From positions 326,632 to 367,965 of the forward strand of contig JALHRL010000001.1 of assembly GCA_022841465.1 (NCBI GenBank): a stretch of 41,334 bases of DNA. The letters run 5' to 3'. The position numbers and the translations under genes were made by a program. Positions 809 through 11,903 of the stretch are shown one piece after another. Origin of the DNA: Bacteroidia bacterium (GTDB lineage Bacteria; Bacteroidota; Bacteroidia; B-17B0; Aurantibacillaceae). The notes under the pieces are model-generated. The model saw only the letters and a program-made list of their open reading frames with translations, was not told the origin of the DNA and searched no databases. Each line of letters opens with the position of its first letter. Position 1 is the first letter of the stretch.

Positions 809-1873
809 TTGAAAAGCGAGCTTATAAAAATAACTGATAAGCTTCCGTTAATTATTTTTTACCAAGGTAATTATGAAGATGCTCCCACAGAAAGTATAAT
901 TGGCATTGTTGAGAATAACGAAAAGCTAATCAGCAAAAAAGGGCAACTTCGTAAACTAATGTTTTTGTGCGTTGAAGCAATTCAAAACATACAAAGATAT
1001 AGTGCACACAAAGATTCAAACGTAGATTCTTCTTTAATTTTTTCAGACGGAAACACTTATCAGGTTTTAACTCAAAATTTAATTTCTAATGAAAATATTT
1101 CGGAGTTAAAAGCCAGATTGGATGCAGTTGTTTCTAAAACAAAAGAAGAACTAGATTTAATTTATATTACCCAAATAGATTCGGATGAAAAAACAACAAA
1201 AGGCGCGGGGCTAGGATTAATTGAAATGGCCCGAAAATCGGATAATAATTTATTCTATCATTTTGAAAATTTTGACGATCAACATTCGTTGTTTAATTTA
1301 TGCTTTGCCATTCCGATTGAAAAAGAAAACTTTCAATCTGTAGATTTTGCCAACGCCATAAACATTCAAAAAGCGCTCAATCAACTTTTTAAAAACAACA
1401 AGAGCAGTTTGTTTTACGGGGGCGATTTCTCTAATAATTTTATCTTATCTATTATTAACTTACTGTTAACTAAAAGCACTCAAGAAAGAAGAAATGCCAA
1501 TAAAAAAACACATCATATTTTAATTGAATTAATACAAAACATAAAGCGACATTCTAAATCCGATAATCAAAACAAACCACCCAAGCTAATTATAGAATGG
1601 GGAGTAAACAACACCTTCATTACAACGCATAATTTAGCACCCATTAACAATGTTCAGGAATTACAGAAAAAAGTTGTAGATTTAAATGCGCTTAATAAAG
1701 AAGAACTAATTCAAGAAAGTAAGGATATTTTAACAGATCTAGAAGCTACAAACGGATTAGGTTTGGTTGATATTGCAAATCTCATATATCCTAACAGAAT
1801 GGAAATAAAAACAAACGAGATAGACGATAAAAGCGCAGAATTATTATTTACCATTAAAGTAAACAATGAGTAA
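809..1873 (+). CDS. Tandem SiaB-like kinase (two HATPase-type domains)
   Basis: This 354-residue protein contains two copies of a SiaB/DUF6272-like GHKL-ATPase module. Copy 1 has an N-box (E56-A-I-Q-N60, followed by IQRYS) and a G-box (GAGLGL at 132-137). Copy 2 has E240-L-I-Q-N244 followed by IKRHS, and NGLGLVDIA near 315-323. In Pseudomonas, SiaB is a single-domain kinase that phosphorylates SiaC, so the duplication is unusual. The start is a TTG at 809; no ATG gives the full first domain. The next gene, a SiaC homologue, overlaps it by 8 bases, so the two are surely co-translated. A convergent SpoIIE phosphatase completes the module. Kinase activity is inferred from homology only. Confidence 0.8.
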   Translation: MKSELIKITDKLPLIIFYQGNYEDAPTESIIGIVENNEKLISKKGQLRKLMFLCVEAIQNIQRYSAHKDSNVDSSLIFSDGNTYQVLTQNLISNENISELKARLDAVVSKTKEELDLIYITQIDSDEKTTKGAGLGLIEMARKSDNNLFYHFENFDDQHSLFNLCFAIPIEKENFQSVDFANAINIQKALNQLFKNNKSSLFYGGDFSNNFILSIINLLLTKSTQERRNANKKTHHILIELIQNIKRHSKSDNQNKPPKLIIEWGVNNTFITTHNLAPINNVQELQKKVVDLNALNKEELIQESKDILTDLEATNGLGLVDIANLIYPNRMEIKTNEIDDKSAELLFTIKVNNE

Positions 1874-2249
1874 CACCATTAATATTGCAGCTCAAGAAGA
1901 CACTCCAATGGTTATAAACGAACCTTTAGGAGATGCAAATAAAATAATTATTGCCGGTGTTTCTATGCCTGAAAACACACTGGATTTTTATGTTCCGCTA
2001 TTAGAGCAATTAATTGATTTATGTGCTGCTTCCAAAAAAAACGTGCTTGATTTTCATTTAGAATACATGAACTCTATGTCTAACAAACAAGTAGTTAAAA
2101 TAATAAGCTCTTTAGCAAAAAACGACCCGGAGCTTCAGGTAATTTGGAAATATTCCGCTGGAGACGATTTAATTAAACTTAAAGGAGAAGAAATGAAGTC
2201 TTTGTTAAGCAACATCTCTTTTACTATTGAAGAAGCACCTAAACTTTAA
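1866..2249 (+). CDS. SiaC-family regulatory phosphoprotein (DUF1987)
   Basis: At 127 residues it has the usual SiaC length. It carries the family's features: an early 'TPMVINEP' strand, 'AGVSMPENTLDFY' (the conserved S-x-PEN motif) and 'FHLEYMNSMSNK', which aligns with the loop holding the phospho-acceptor (a Thr in Pseudomonas SiaC). Ser70 is the likely acceptor here, with Ser72 the alternative; this is inferred from recalled family alignment. SiaC proteins are switched by a SiaB kinase and a SiaA PP2C-type phosphatase, and when unphosphorylated bind a partner (a diguanylate cyclase in Pseudomonas). No cyclase gene is nearby, so the target is unknown. The 3' end overlaps the convergent phosphatase gene by 11 bases. 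Confidence 0.85.
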   Translation: MSNTINIAAQEDTPMVINEPLGDANKIIIAGVSMPENTLDFYVPLLEQLIDLCAASKKNVLDFHLEYMNSMSNKQVVKIISSLAKNDPELQVIWKYSAGDDLIKLKGEEMKSLLSNISFTIEEAPKL

Positions 2250-4002
2250 AACCAATAACAAGAACATCGTCTGTTTGCTCCTTCGCGCCTTTCCATTTTA
2301 TAAACTCTTCTTTCAATTCGTTCTCGGCATTAGCCAATTCTTTATTCTTTGATATTTTTGCTAAAAGATTTTCAAAACGCCTTAAGTTATATTTTTCAGG
2401 TTTTTGATTTTCTCCGTTAAACTGATCGCAGAATCCGTCACTCATTAAATAAAAACAATCTTCTTTTTTAAATTCAACCATTACATCTTCGTATGATGTG
2501 TTATTGTTTTTATTTGTACTGAACGTGGGTAAATAATGTAATACCTCGCCGTTAGAGTGTTTATAAATCCCATGTCCGTTAGAAGCAAAAATAGCTTTAC
2601 CATCTTCTTTACCCAAACAAAAAACAGTTAGCTCAATTCCGTACTCCATCAAGTTCTGGTTAGAAAATGCAATGTTTAATTGATTATTTAATTCTTTTAT
2701 AATTTCACTGGGAATAATTAGTTTCTTTTTCTCAACAATATCTTCAATAATGCCATGGCCTAAAATTGTAAGTAATGCGCCGGGCACACCGTGTCCTGTA
2801 CAATCTGCAGAAACAATAATTTTAGTACCGTTAATTTCATTAAACCAATAAAAATCGCCCGATAGAAAATCTTTCGGTTGATAAAACACAAATGAATTAG
2901 GGAAAAGTTTTTTAATATTCTCCTTATTCATTAATAAATTGGATTGTATTACCGATGCATATTTTATACTACTAATAATTCTATTATTAATTTTTGTTAT
3001 TTGTGTGTTTTTCGCACTTAATTCTTTATTAAATTTCTTTTTCTCGTTTAGATAATAAAACATAAAGCCAATAAGTAAAAGAGCCACTATAACCATTAAT
3101 ACCATAAAAGTGATTACCTTTTTAGCTTGAGCAAGTTCTTTTTCCTGCACTTTTAAAAAATCTTCTTTTAATGCTAACTGTGTTTCGGCGCTTTTTATTT
3201 GATTTAAAAGCAATTGATAATTAGGGTCGTTTATATTGTATTGCGCAAGCAACTGCTTTGATTTTTCAATTTCATTTTTTATATCGTTAACCGTTGATGA
3301 GGTATCACTTATAGCATTGCTTAATGCAATTAATACTTCATTAGCGCGTTTGTTTTCAGTTGCGGTGTTGATATTATTCGGTTGTGTTTCTTTAATTTCA
3401 ACTTCTTTGTTTGCTGACTTAACAGAGGTTACAGCAATACGTGGCAAGTTTGTACTAACAATATTTTGCTTTGAGCTATTATTTAAACTAACGGCTTTTT
3501 CTATTAAAATTTTATTGGATTGAATAACATCTTGATTTCCTCCTTTTGCACTTGATTCTGAAAAACTATACGATAAAATGCCTGATTCATTAATCGTTAA
3601 CTCACCAAGTTCATTAGCTGAGTTATCTTCTTTTCTTATTATAAATGAAATTAAAGAAAAAGATGATTTTATCCCTGCGTCCTTATAGTTTAACTTATAA
3701 TTAACGGTTGAATATCCGCTTTTTGAAATACTAATCTGATATTCACCCGGACCGGAAATGGAAAAAGTATATACACCACTTATATCGGTATGAACAACAA
3801 CATTATTGTTCTCTCCTCTAACATTAACCTTTACACCACTAAGTGGACCTTCAAAACCAAGATTTTTACTGGCCTTTTTCATTAGCATCAGTTTCTCTCC
3901 ATAAAAAGCATAAATACTACCGGACAACTGAATGGTTTGAGCATTAACACTAAGGATTGATAAGAGTATGAGAACGAAAATATTTTTAATGAAACGTAGC
4001 AT
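2239..4002 (-). CDS. Membrane-anchored SpoIIE/PP2C-type phosphatase with N-terminal carboxypeptidase-regulatory-like domain
   Basis: Domain order in 587 residues: signal peptide (1-21, ending VNAQ); a beta-rich carboxypeptidase regulatory-like domain (about 22-120, 'SGVKVNVRG ... DISGVYTFSI'); a low-complexity stretch with coiled coil (about 215-295); one membrane helix (297-317); and a cytoplasmic SpoIIE-type phosphatase (about 345-587). Metal-site motifs are present: SGDFYWF (D383), SADCTGHG (D400), a 'LMSDGFCDQ' segment and a C-terminal 'TDDVLVIG'. The protein probably dephosphorylates Ser/Thr on the SiaC-type protein encoded opposite it, matching the SiaA role. The exported N-terminal domain could be the sensor. 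Pairing with the neighbouring kinase and phosphoprotein is inferred from location and family knowledge. Confidence 0.85.
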   Translation of the reverse strand: MLRFIKNIFVLILLSILSVNAQTIQLSGSIYAFYGEKLMLMKKASKNLGFEGPLSGVKVNVRGENNNVVVHTDISGVYTFSISGPGEYQISISKSGYSTVNYKLNYKDAGIKSSFSLISFIIRKEDNSANELGELTINESGILSYSFSESSAKGGNQDVIQSNKILIEKAVSLNNSSKQNIVSTNLPRIAVTSVKSANKEVEIKETQPNNINTATENKRANEVLIALSNAISDTSSTVNDIKNEIEKSKQLLAQYNINDPNYQLLLNQIKSAETQLALKEDFLKVQEKELAQAKKVITFMVLMVIVALLLIGFMFYYLNEKKKFNKELSAKNTQITKINNRIISSIKYASVIQSNLLMNKENIKKLFPNSFVFYQPKDFLSGDFYWFNEINGTKIIVSADCTGHGVPGALLTILGHGIIEDIVEKKKLIIPSEIIKELNNQLNIAFSNQNLMEYGIELTVFCLGKEDGKAIFASNGHGIYKHSNGEVLHYLPTFSTNKNNNTSYEDVMVEFKKEDCFYLMSDGFCDQFNGENQKPEKYNLRRFENLLAKISKNKELANAENELKEEFIKWKGAKEQTDDVLVIGFKV

Positions 4003-9575: not shown

Positions 9576-11189
9576 ATGAGATCAACATTAAAATATTTAG
9601 CAGCAATATTGTTTAGTTTTAATTTGTCTGCGCAACTAATTCCGTTTAATTATCAGGTAAAGCTGACTCCAAAGAACATTACAAATTTACCTGGAGTGCA
9701 TTCATTTGCTTTTGCACAATCAGCCGGAAATTGGTTAGTGATAGGAGGAAGGTTAGATGGTTTACACGCAAGACAGCCGTTTAACGCTTTTCCGGCAGCA
9801 AGTAATAATACAAACATCTACGTTGTAGATGTTAATACGCAACAATTTTGGTCTGCAAGTGTTAACAGTTTACCTAATGGCTTAAAGGAGCAATTACAAT
9901 CAACTAATATGAATTTTTATCAAGATAAAGATTCACTATACATAATTGGCGGGTATGGTTATAGTAATTCTGCTCAAGATCATATCACTTATCCTAATCT
10001 TACCTCAATTAACGTACCCGGTTTAATAAATGCAATTAAAAACAGTAATCCAATCCTTGGTTTTTTTAAACAAATAACAGATCAAAATTTTGCTGTAAAT
10101 GGGGGGCAACTCGGAAAAATAGGAAATGAATTTTATTTGGTTGGAGGTCATCGTTTTGATGGGCGTTACAATCCAATGGGTAATCCTACCTATACTCAAA
10201 CTTATGTAAGTGGAATAAAAAAGTTCACCTTAAATAACTCAGGGTCTCAATTAAGCTATGCAAATTATACGGTAGTAACAGATCAAGTTCATTTGCATCG
10301 CCGAGATTATAATTTAGTGCCTCAGGTTTTTCCAAATGGAGAACAAGGTTATACAATATCTTCAGGTGTTTTTCAAATTGGTATTGATTTACCATTTTTA
10401 TATCCGGTTGATGTAAAAGCAGGCGGTTATTTTCCTGTCACAAATTTTAATCAATACCTCAGTAATTATCATTCAGCCAAAGTTGCCTTGTATGATAGCA
10501 TAAATAACACCATGCATTCTATATTTTTTGGAGGCATGAGTCAATATAAGTACGTAAATAATATCTTAACGCAAGATAACACAGTTCCATTTGTAAAAAC
10601 AATTAGCAGAGTTTCAAGAAATGGTAATGGAAACTTACAAGAAAATGTTTTTATTAATGAAATGCCGGCACTAATAGGTGCAAGTGCAGAATTTATTCCT
10701 AATCATTCAATTCCGCATTATAGTAATGAGGTATTAAAACTTTCAACCATAAATGCTGACTCAATACTCATAGGTCATATTTTTGGAGGTATTTATACTA
10801 TCGATGCAAGTGCATTTACAAATAACAATACAGGAGCCACAAATGCACATAATACAATTTATGAAGTGTGGATTGTAAAAAACACAAGTGGATCTTCAGG
10901 ATTAAAACCTATTAATGGTAAAAACCCACTAATTGCGCAATTGTATCCAAATCCATCTAAAAAAGATATAAAACTAAAAATCACCTTGCCTTATAATGGC
11001 GAATTAGATGTATTTGTAACAGATATTTCAGGTAAAATAATTTGGGATAAAAATTATACTTTGCTTTTAAAAGGCGAACAAATAATCGACTTAACAGATA
11101 AAATAAACTTAAATAAAGGAGTTTATAATTTCAATTTTACTTTTGATGGAAAATTCTCTACTATAGAAAAAATTATTATAGTTGATTAA
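9576..11189 (+). CDS. Secreted Kelch-like beta-propeller protein with T9SS sorting domain
   Basis: A signal peptide (1-19, ending LSAQ) is followed by Kelch-like blades: repeated 'WLVIGGRLDG', 'SLYIIGGYGYS', 'FYLVGGHRFDGRYNP' and 'SIFFGGMSQYKYV', each a GG pair in a beta strand. The last 80 residues or so (LYPNPSKKDIKLKI ... ISGKIIWDKNY ... LNKGVYNFNF) form a type IX secretion sorting domain. The protein is therefore exported to the surface or medium. Kelch folds bind ligands or act as enzymes, and no catalytic residue can be named. It lies between sulfur genes and has its own copy of the island operator, so it may have a job in extracellular sulfur-compound handling; that link is inference. 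Confidence 0.8.
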   Translation: MRSTLKYLAAILFSFNLSAQLIPFNYQVKLTPKNITNLPGVHSFAFAQSAGNWLVIGGRLDGLHARQPFNAFPAASNNTNIYVVDVNTQQFWSASVNSLPNGLKEQLQSTNMNFYQDKDSLYIIGGYGYSNSAQDHITYPNLTSINVPGLINAIKNSNPILGFFKQITDQNFAVNGGQLGKIGNEFYLVGGHRFDGRYNPMGNPTYTQTYVSGIKKFTLNNSGSQLSYANYTVVTDQVHLHRRDYNLVPQVFPNGEQGYTISSGVFQIGIDLPFLYPVDVKAGGYFPVTNFNQYLSNYHSAKVALYDSINNTMHSIFFGGMSQYKYVNNILTQDNTVPFVKTISRVSRNGNGNLQENVFINEMPALIGASAEFIPNHSIPHYSNEVLKLSTINADSILIGHIFGGIYTIDASAFTNNNTGATNAHNTIYEVWIVKNTSGSSGLKPINGKNPLIAQLYPNPSKKDIKLKITLPYNGELDVFVTDISGKIIWDKNYTLLLKGEQIIDLTDKINLNKGVYNFNFTFDGKFSTIEKIIIVD

Positions 11190-11216
11190 TAAAAAACATC
11201 TTAAAACATTCTTAGG

Positions 11217-11903
11217 TTAATTAAACTTAAGCATGTACTGATAGTTTAAAGTAGTGGTATCTTGAATAAGTAAATTAAAACCTACTTCTTTCATTTCACT
11301 GATAATAGTTTCAGCATTTAATTTCATTTCATCAGGAGGACCGTGCTTAAAGTTCCCTTTTTTAAAATCAACAATTACTAATTCGCCATTAGGTTTCAAA
11401 CCTTTTTTAATTAGCGAAAAATATTCCTTTCTGTTTTCTATATGATGATAAACATCAACCATAAAAACAACATCTGCTTCTTGATCCAAAACAGGAGGCT
11501 TCTCGTATTCCGCCTTACGTGTAATAATGTTACCTTTTTTCTCTTTTGCAATGCGAGTATTTAAATATTCAATAAATCGTTCATCTGCATCAGCTGCTAT
11601 TAATTTAGCACTTGGCTCATTTATTCTAAACTCAAAATAACCTGTACCTGCACCAATGTCTATAACCGTTTTGTTTTTTAAATCTCCAAGAAATGCAATT
11701 ACCGAATCTGGCTTTTGCCATTCATCTCTTTCGGCCGATTCGAAACGGGTTACTAAATCTTCAAATGAGCTTTTATTCATGTGATGGTTTGCGTGTTGAT
11801 GCTTACCGAAGTTTTTATTATTAATGGTATCATCAGAGCAAGATGCTATTATAAAAATAACTCCACCAACAAAAAATCTGAAATATTTAAATTTAATTAT
11901 CAT
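11217..11903 (-). CDS. Lipoprotein-type class I SAM methyltransferase
   Basis: The first 22 residues look like a lipoprotein signal (hydrophobic 9-20, lipobox IIASC, Cys22), followed by a His-rich linker (KHQHANHHMN). The rest is a Rossmann-type methyltransferase: motif I 'VIDIGAGTGYFE', acidic loop 'LIAADADERF', motif II 'ADVVFMVDVYHHIE' and 'LKPNGELVIVDFKKG'. The domain is complete, ending with a typical C-terminal strand. Export is odd since SAM is cytoplasmic; either the enzyme is tethered in the periplasm with another role, or the real start lies downstream (for instance Met42, after the His-rich linker). It is divergent from the sulfur genes and shares an upstream region containing operator 5. 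The methyl acceptor is unknown. Confidence 0.75.
   Translation of the reverse strand: MIIKFKYFRFFVGGVIFIIASCSDDTINNKNFGKHQHANHHMNKSSFEDLVTRFESAERDEWQKPDSVIAFLGDLKNKTVIDIGAGTGYFEFRINEPSAKLIAADADERFIEYLNTRIAKEKKGNIITRKAEYEKPPVLDQEADVVFMVDVYHHIENRKEYFSLIKKGLKPNGELVIVDFKKGNFKHGPPDEMKLNAETIISEMKEVGFNLLIQDTTTLNYQYMLKFN

Follow-up and report, generated by a model that had tools for sequence, protein, structure and literature searches.

The closest described relative of the locus treated here is the SiaABCD system of Pseudomonas aeruginosa. According to PMC8457831, the target of SiaC is the diguanylate cyclase SiaD, and SiaC proteins are suggested to modulate "adjacent proteins". PMC7647112 gives Glu61 as the predicted catalytic residue of the kinase SiaB and describes a 2 SiaB:2 SiaC complex. 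Here we analyzed a stretch of 41,334 nucleotides (nt), in the following called the window, of a Bacteroidia bacterium of the Aurantibacillaceae (assembly GCA_022841465.1, contig JALHRL010000001.1, positions 326,632 to 367,965), which at 809-4002 contains a cassette of a tandem SiaB-like kinase, a SiaC-type protein and a convergent phosphatase. This cassette is a genuine switch whose type is known but whose context is new: the kinase is a tandem, no GGDEF cyclase was found, and the likely output is a transporter. Our tentative reading is a partner switch of the SiaABC type that does not act on a cyclase, and its best-supported target in this class is the N-terminal module of an ABC transporter that we named c2. 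In the open-access literature, where absence is weak evidence because most subscription papers are left out, no title or abstract among the matches listed dealt with this system, and neither DUF6272 nor "SiaB family protein kinase" was found there.

Like SiaABCD, the cassette has a SiaB-fold kinase, a phosphosite at the same position in SiaC and a membrane PP2C phosphatase that is related over the linker and the catalytic domain. Unlike in SiaABCD, the kinase is duplicated and fused, Ser stands for Thr, and the phosphatase is convergent, has a different outer domain and gives no HAMP match among its Pfam matches to E 1; moreover, there is no GGDEF match in the genome, so that no SiaD-type output was found. 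With SpoIIAB/RsbW-SpoIIAA/RsbV the cassette shares the fold of the kinase domain and the logic of a kinase, a STAS-like substrate and a PP2C phosphatase. However, its SiaC belongs to PF09345, with no match to Pfam STAS up to E 1, its kinase is a tandem, and no sigma factor is linked to it so far (the neighbors were read by eye and no family search was made).

Kinase, phosphoprotein and phosphatase

The coordinates of the three genes were confirmed by a check of the open reading frames (ORFs), which agree with Pfam and NCBIfam on the layout that an earlier interpretation of the bare letters (the sequence-only reading) had proposed, with SiaC between the tandem kinase and the convergent phosphatase. 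The kinase and SiaC ORFs overlap by 8 nt, and the 3' tails of SiaC and phosphatase by 11 nt (2239-2249). Just upstream of window base 1 (before position 326632 of the contig), unread bases (N) break the gene upstream of the cassette, which has an X in its translation.

The first gene (809..1873, + strand, TTG start) encodes the putative tandem SiaB-type (DUF6272) serine/threonine kinase of 354 amino acids (aa). It matches Pfam DUF6272 (PF19788) in two stretches (E 2.1e-43, 147.7 bits, cut-off 26.6), NCBIfam SiaB_fam_kinase (NF038262; 151 bits, cut-off 85) and, by sequence, SiaB in the PDB (6kko, E 1e-4). Its structure model has two domains (predicted local distance difference test, pLDDT, 88.1; predicted template modeling score, pTM, 0.86), so that the fused two-domain kinase of the sequence-only reading is well borne out, and the closest fold is that of SiaB (6kko_A, Z 14.9, root-mean-square deviation 2.5 A, 164 residues aligned), with lower scores for SpoIIAB (Z 9.1) and RsbW (Z 8.5). 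Going by the limits of the hidden Markov model (HMM) matches and by alignments, domain 1 (aa 14-165, 848..1303, + strand) carries the N-box E56/Q59/N60 and the G-box G132-A-G-L-G136, and domain 2 (aa 200-349, 1406..1855, + strand) the N-box E240/Q243/N244 and the G-box TNGLGL, in which the first Gly is replaced. Among 14 tandem kinases gathered by protein similarity, E56, Q59, N60, N90, G132, G134 and G136 are invariant in domain 1 and E240, Q243, N244, N275, G316 and G318 in domain 2. Still invariant in 77 tandem kinases, that is the one of the window and 76 unfused genes of 355-400 aa from named Bacteroidota loci, are E56, Q59, N60, N90, G136, E240, N244 and N275, but part of this invariance is built in, because the loci were found with two peptide patterns covering N-box and G-box. 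Both E56 and E240 align with the predicted catalytic Glu61 of SiaB (one residue off in chain numbering), and judging from these residues both active sites are probably kept. Since the Pseudomonas SiaB/SiaC complex is 2:2, it is also reasonable that the fused kinase may act as an internal dimer, a proposal of the sequence-only reading that fits the two-domain model.

The second gene (1866..2249, + strand) encodes a SiaC-family (PF09345) predicted phosphoprotein of 127 aa, which clearly matches the Pfam family (E 1.5e-18, 67.1 bits, cut-off 24.5) and weakly SiaC in the PDB (6k4f, E 0.02). In an alignment of 159 SiaC domains, including one 66-aa fragment as well as fused domains, every domain carries Thr (117) or Ser (42) in the column of Pseudomonas SiaC Thr68; the window protein has Ser70 there (codon 2073..2075, + strand). 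Of the two candidate phosphosites named before, Ser70 therefore stands at the Thr68 column, and Ser72 lies two residues beyond it. Because the N-box Glu and Asn are kept in both kinase domains and Ser70 is at the Thr68 position, a working phosphorylation cycle is likely from sequence. Ten pattern matches to the window SiaC in viral contigs contained no relative.

The third gene (2239..4002, - strand) encodes the putative SiaA-type membrane PP2C/SpoIIE phosphatase of 587 aa. Its catalytic domain (Pfam aa 395-586, 2245..2820, - strand) matches Pfam SpoIIE (E 2.6e-14, 54 bits, cut-off 25) and the PP2C domain of SiaA in the PDB (6k4e, E 2.7e-22) with the metal-binding Asp motifs aligned and kept; GDFY (aa 382, immediately ahead of the Pfam stretch), DCTGHG (400), SDGF (521) and TDDV (577) are present. 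With the NCBIfam SiaA model, the alignment starts no earlier than residue 325. The N-terminal half has, by hydropathy, a hydrophobic start (about aa 1-21, 3940..4002, - strand), likely a signal peptide or anchor, and one strong hydrophobic segment (about aa 295-316, 3055..3120, - strand), predicted to span the membrane; in between lies a CarboxypepD_reg-like stretch (aa 53-108, 3679..3846, - strand; 29.0 bits, below the curated cut-off of 32.3), which is presumed to be a periplasmic sensor. The exported part postulated by the sequence-only reading is therefore likely, and it is plausible that this half senses a signal outside the cytoplasm.

Tandem cassettes and the missing cyclase

Profile searches of the window's own genome (G000; C1, C2, C8, C10, C27 and C32 denote contigs of it) gave seven SiaC genes, six DUF6272 domains in four genes and 43 SpoIIE domains; since the SpoIIE domains far outnumber the SiaC genes, many of the phosphatases probably have other substrates. 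Contig C10 carries a second cassette, in which the tandem kinase and SiaC are joined by a convergent phosphatase whose sensor half contains TPR. In a set on C8, one gene separates the others from a phosphatase of the Reg_prop/Y_Y_Y type, and the gene after SiaC on C32 encodes a phosphatase that has TPR as well as PAS. Moreover, a lone SiaB-type kinase (G000:C2:148083-148658, L051) follows a gene that by eye is nucleoside-kinase-like and has no SiaC match within the 19 kb read, so its substrate may be encoded elsewhere.

Orthologs of the window kinase were found in two of the 24 other genomes of the genus searched (54% and 44% identity). Of the first 88 regions collected, 83 gave 90 SiaC genes (L051 is kinase-only, and L130, L172, L173 and L174 gave none). 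They contain 19 two-domain kinase genes, each of which has SiaC as the next gene and a phosphatase adjoining the kinase-SiaC pair (16 convergent, two codirectional, one upstream). Tandem kinase and SiaC are even joined in one chain in five natural fusions (L226, L230, L231, L234, L236), of which that of L236 was modeled (pLDDT 89.3, pTM 0.80). The combination of tandem kinase and SiaC is thus widespread in Bacteroidota and not special to the window. The SiaC tree is based on a short alignment, and its program gave a warning that long branches meet. It places all 19 SiaC that are linked to a tandem kinase, together with nine others, in one clade of 28 rows (97/99), and the window SiaC forms one clade with its two congeneric orthologs (100/100). 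The idea that the window cassette is a recent local duplication of the C10 cassette was rejected, as the nearest grouping of the window clade is with four further SiaC of tandem cassettes (100/97), and the clade of C10 is a separate one (98/92).

Further arrangements were seen in these loci. In the window and in 11 of the 16 convergent tandem cassettes, the 3' ends of the SiaC and phosphatase genes share 4 or 11 nt, and a single SiaB kinase is fused to SiaC in one chain in L171 (9539-10465, - strand). CheR-like, CheB-like and mostly GAF-like genes stand beside SpoIIE phosphatase, SiaB and SiaC in L168, L187, L190, L127, L131, L277 and L278, names that were given by reading the sequence, with only the GAF of L190 confirmed by Pfam.

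The absence of a diguanylate cyclase, which the sequence-only reading had stated for the locus, holds for the whole genome, as a profile search gave no GGDEF match (eight of 14 control genomes were positive), and nearly for the whole class. Among 149 sampled class genomes, 89 have SiaC, with up to 15 SiaC genes per genome (G027), and 90 have DUF6272, including all 89 with SiaC, whereas GGDEF was found in two; only one genome (G107) has both SiaC and GGDEF, and in the other 88 SiaC-bearing genomes GGDEF was not found. With a GGDEF match in only one of the 89, a GGDEF-made cyclic di-GMP (c-di-GMP) output is very unlikely in these 88. Therefore, the cyclase is indeed absent and the kinase duplicated as described before, but neither is a special trait of this site.

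A TerB-containing transporter as candidate target

A survey of neighbors in other genomes, as recommended by the sequence-only reading, found a c2/c3 cluster that recurs near SiaC in relatives, the window cassette itself having no adjoining c2. This cluster, seen among the neighbors of the 90 SiaC genes, consists of c2, c3 and small secreted proteins. c2 is an ABCG-type protein of about 1020 aa with ABC ATPase and ABC2 membrane domain, and 17 out of 22 members have a TerB match in the N-terminal part with an E value of at most 0.1 (lowest 5.7e-7); the BLAST cluster c2 also includes some shorter ABC proteins, which fall outside the test with the c2 N-terminal profile. c3 is a lipoprotein of about 300 aa with a Cys that is invariant in 22 members. 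With thresholds of E 1e-10 for c2 and E 1e-6 for c3, c2 is present in 81 of the 89 genomes with SiaC compared to two of the 60 others, and c3 in 83 compared to one. Because the genomes are related, the co-occurrence was rechecked within families, and in the four families that are mixed for SiaC (f3, f5, f15, f19) c2 and c3 track SiaC in 16 out of 16 genomes, ten with and six without. The secretion tag PF18962 failed as a phylogenetic control, as it is present in 145 of the 149 genomes.

Furthermore, a listed SiaC lies within 6 kb of at least 33 of 104 c2 sites (31 genomes, 19 families), compared to 0.63 expected for genomes of 3.5 Mb, and 33 is a lower bound because the SiaC search gave best matches only. 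The genes are codirectional in the order SiaC, c2, c3 in L127, L129, L187 and L190 and in the order SiaC, c3, c2 in L176 and L180, and in two Cesiribacter loci (Cesiribacter sp. SM1, L229; Cesiribacter andamanensis AMV16, L265) a row of phosphatase, SiaB, SiaC, c2 and c3 lies close beyond the phosphatase of the tandem kinase. Nafulsella turpanensis ZLM-10 (L260) likewise has tandem kinase, phosphatase, c3 and c2 near one another.

Of all these observations, a gene fusion speaks most strongly for the transporter module as what SiaC acts on. Two genomes of the window's genus (G063 and G131) have the gene order SiaB, SiaC, a fusion of 374 and 377 aa, respectively, c2, secreted protein and c3, and in the fusion residues 5-243 or so resemble the N-terminal module of c2 (71.4 and 49.4 bits), although Pfam calls no TerB there, and residues 255-366 are a SiaC domain, with 99.8 bits in G063 and 95.0 bits in G131 and Pfam E values of 1.1e-28 and 5e-26. 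Fusions of this kind usually mark proteins that act together. A third genome (G243, family f20) has the order phosphatase, SiaB, SiaB, SiaC, a 367-aa fusion and c2, with a weaker c2-like module (25.0 bits) and a SiaC domain of 128.3 bits. Among the matches listed from 395 genomes, full-length fusions occur only in G063 and G131, that of G243 coming from following a partial match, and at most five candidates were scored in most genomes. Within the c2 module, residues 181-225 weakly match the profile of entry 5yyx (E 0.12), which we take to be the FHA domain of Mek1. A precedent for STAS-like regulation of an ABC transporter is MlaB-MlaF, in which a STAS protein is bound to the ABC ATPase; Mla is not known to have a kinase/phosphatase cycle, and it differs from c2, in which ATPase and permease are fused in one ABCG-type chain that also has a TerB module.

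If the cassette is a partner switch of the SiaABC type, the tandem kinase would phosphorylate Ser70 of SiaC. The phosphatase would receive a signal on its outward-facing part, this signal would switch on its cytoplasmic PP2C domain, and the domain would remove the phosphate from SiaC. The phospho-state of SiaC would then decide whether it stays with the kinase or docks on its target, which in the class may be the cytoplasmic TerB-containing N-terminal module of c2, encoded with c3 and often a small secreted protein.

Several observations weigh against this scheme, at the levels of both the switch and its target. The first G-box Gly is lost in domain 2 of the window-type kinase, the window SiaC sits on a long divergent branch of the tree, and the Pseudomonas equivalog cut-offs (NF038263-NF038265) are unmet for SiaA (137.2, cut-off 700), SiaB (79.8, cut-off 225) and SiaC (37.4, cut-off 150). 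A larger set of at least 80 named Bacteroidota loci, of 3-21 kb DNA each, gave 83 tandem kinase genes (80 named loci listed), of which five are fused to SiaC, 57 have SiaC next, four lie at the locus end and 17 have another gene next. A phosphatase is found from one gene upstream to three downstream in 23 of the 78 unfused tandem kinases, in 14 of these 23 convergent and two genes on. The kinase-SiaC pairing is thus common, and the phosphatase partner is often encoded elsewhere. For the transporter, 19 of the 33 SiaC-close c2 sites were seeds of the c2 profile and 14 were not, and as regions with a linked SiaC supplied the seeds of both the c2 and the c3 profile, linked copies are favored. The own genome has a single c2 match, in a cluster of c3, two small proteins and c2 (G000:C27, L273:6315-11313, + strand), which is on another contig and beside none of its SiaC genes, so that several of the seven SiaC would have to share c2 or have other targets. 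c2 is present in only four and c3 in five of the 80 listed loci; tandem cassettes are therefore not specially tied to c2. Finally, c2 is absent from eight and c3 from six of the 89 SiaC genomes, and two genomes (G045, G123) have c2 with a c3-like gene beside it but no SiaC.

c2 may be the target of the window cassette itself or only of a paralog, and the assignment to this cassette stays inferred, because c2 is not adjacent, few tandem loci have c2, SiaC occurs in genomes without c2 and c2 in genomes without SiaC, and there is a candidate for an alternative target. The target, which the sequence-only reading had left open, is thus narrowed to c2 by co-occurrence, adjacency and fusion in relatives, and for this cassette it is still provisional.

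Other outputs and biological meaning

It is quite possible, though we would not count on it, that the switch core is right and the SiaC of the cassette acts on another target, for example a c34-type coiled-coil membrane protein or a protein that is no neighbor, as seven SiaC face one c2 in the genome and c2 is rare in the tandem-kinase loci. In two SiaC genomes without c2, G129 (f38) and G162 (f62), a coiled-coil membrane protein directly follows SiaC, and that of G129 carries VSDRLQ, similar to the stretch S82-D83-R84-Y85-Q86 with which SiaD binds SiaC (PMC8457831). However, c34 was found in only three of the 88 regions, the strict S-D-R-x-Q motif is present in one of four members, a phmmer search of c34 against the PDB gave coiled coils and other chains but no SiaD, and no c34-type gene was seen near the window cassette. 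The members are short, combine coiled coil with a hydrophobic segment at the C-terminus and are encoded after SiaC (L139:5366-5926, + strand; L168:10532-10993 and 11028-11495, + strand; L169:10741-11325, + strand). S-D-R-x-Q was dropped as a general target finder, with three matches in 1468 ORFs of the 88 regions, one of them c34.

A sigma-factor partner switch, in which the kinase would also sequester a sigma factor that SiaC releases, is unlikely. The kinase model does resemble SpoIIAB and RsbW, SiaC resembles anti-sigma antagonists (PMC7647112), and by eye L276 has a sigma-like ORF close to c2 and L311 one close to SiaC, but SiaB is far closer to the model, and no sigma-like gene was evident in the largest recurrent neighbor clusters, which were read by eye with no family search made. 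Very improbable is a hidden c-di-GMP output through a diverged or unrecognized cyclase: in Pseudomonas SiaC is known to activate a cyclase (PMC8457831), but the own genome has no GGDEF match and none was found in 88 of the 89 SiaC genomes. That the cassette is a degenerate remnant without function is hardly credible either, as, despite the rarity of the window-type kinase in its genus, all three genes are open, the catalytic motifs are kept and the same order is found in three genomes at 44-54% kinase identity.

With up to 15 SiaC genes per genome and almost no GGDEF, the switch must usually have another output than a cyclase, and, given the link to the transporter, one output of this sort can be tested directly. 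It might even be, although we regard this as rather doubtful, that the SiaC switches of Bacteroidia are largely transporter switches, in which one phospho-form docks on a TerB-containing and possibly FHA-like module and gates the export of a lipoprotein-linked surface product; the weak match to the FHA entry would even allow the c2 module to read phospho-SiaC directly. If this is true, the genome of the window would run several sensors into one transporter through SiaC paralogs, and phosphorylation would connect surface sensors with envelope transport in a group of bacteria most of which are without c-di-GMP synthases.

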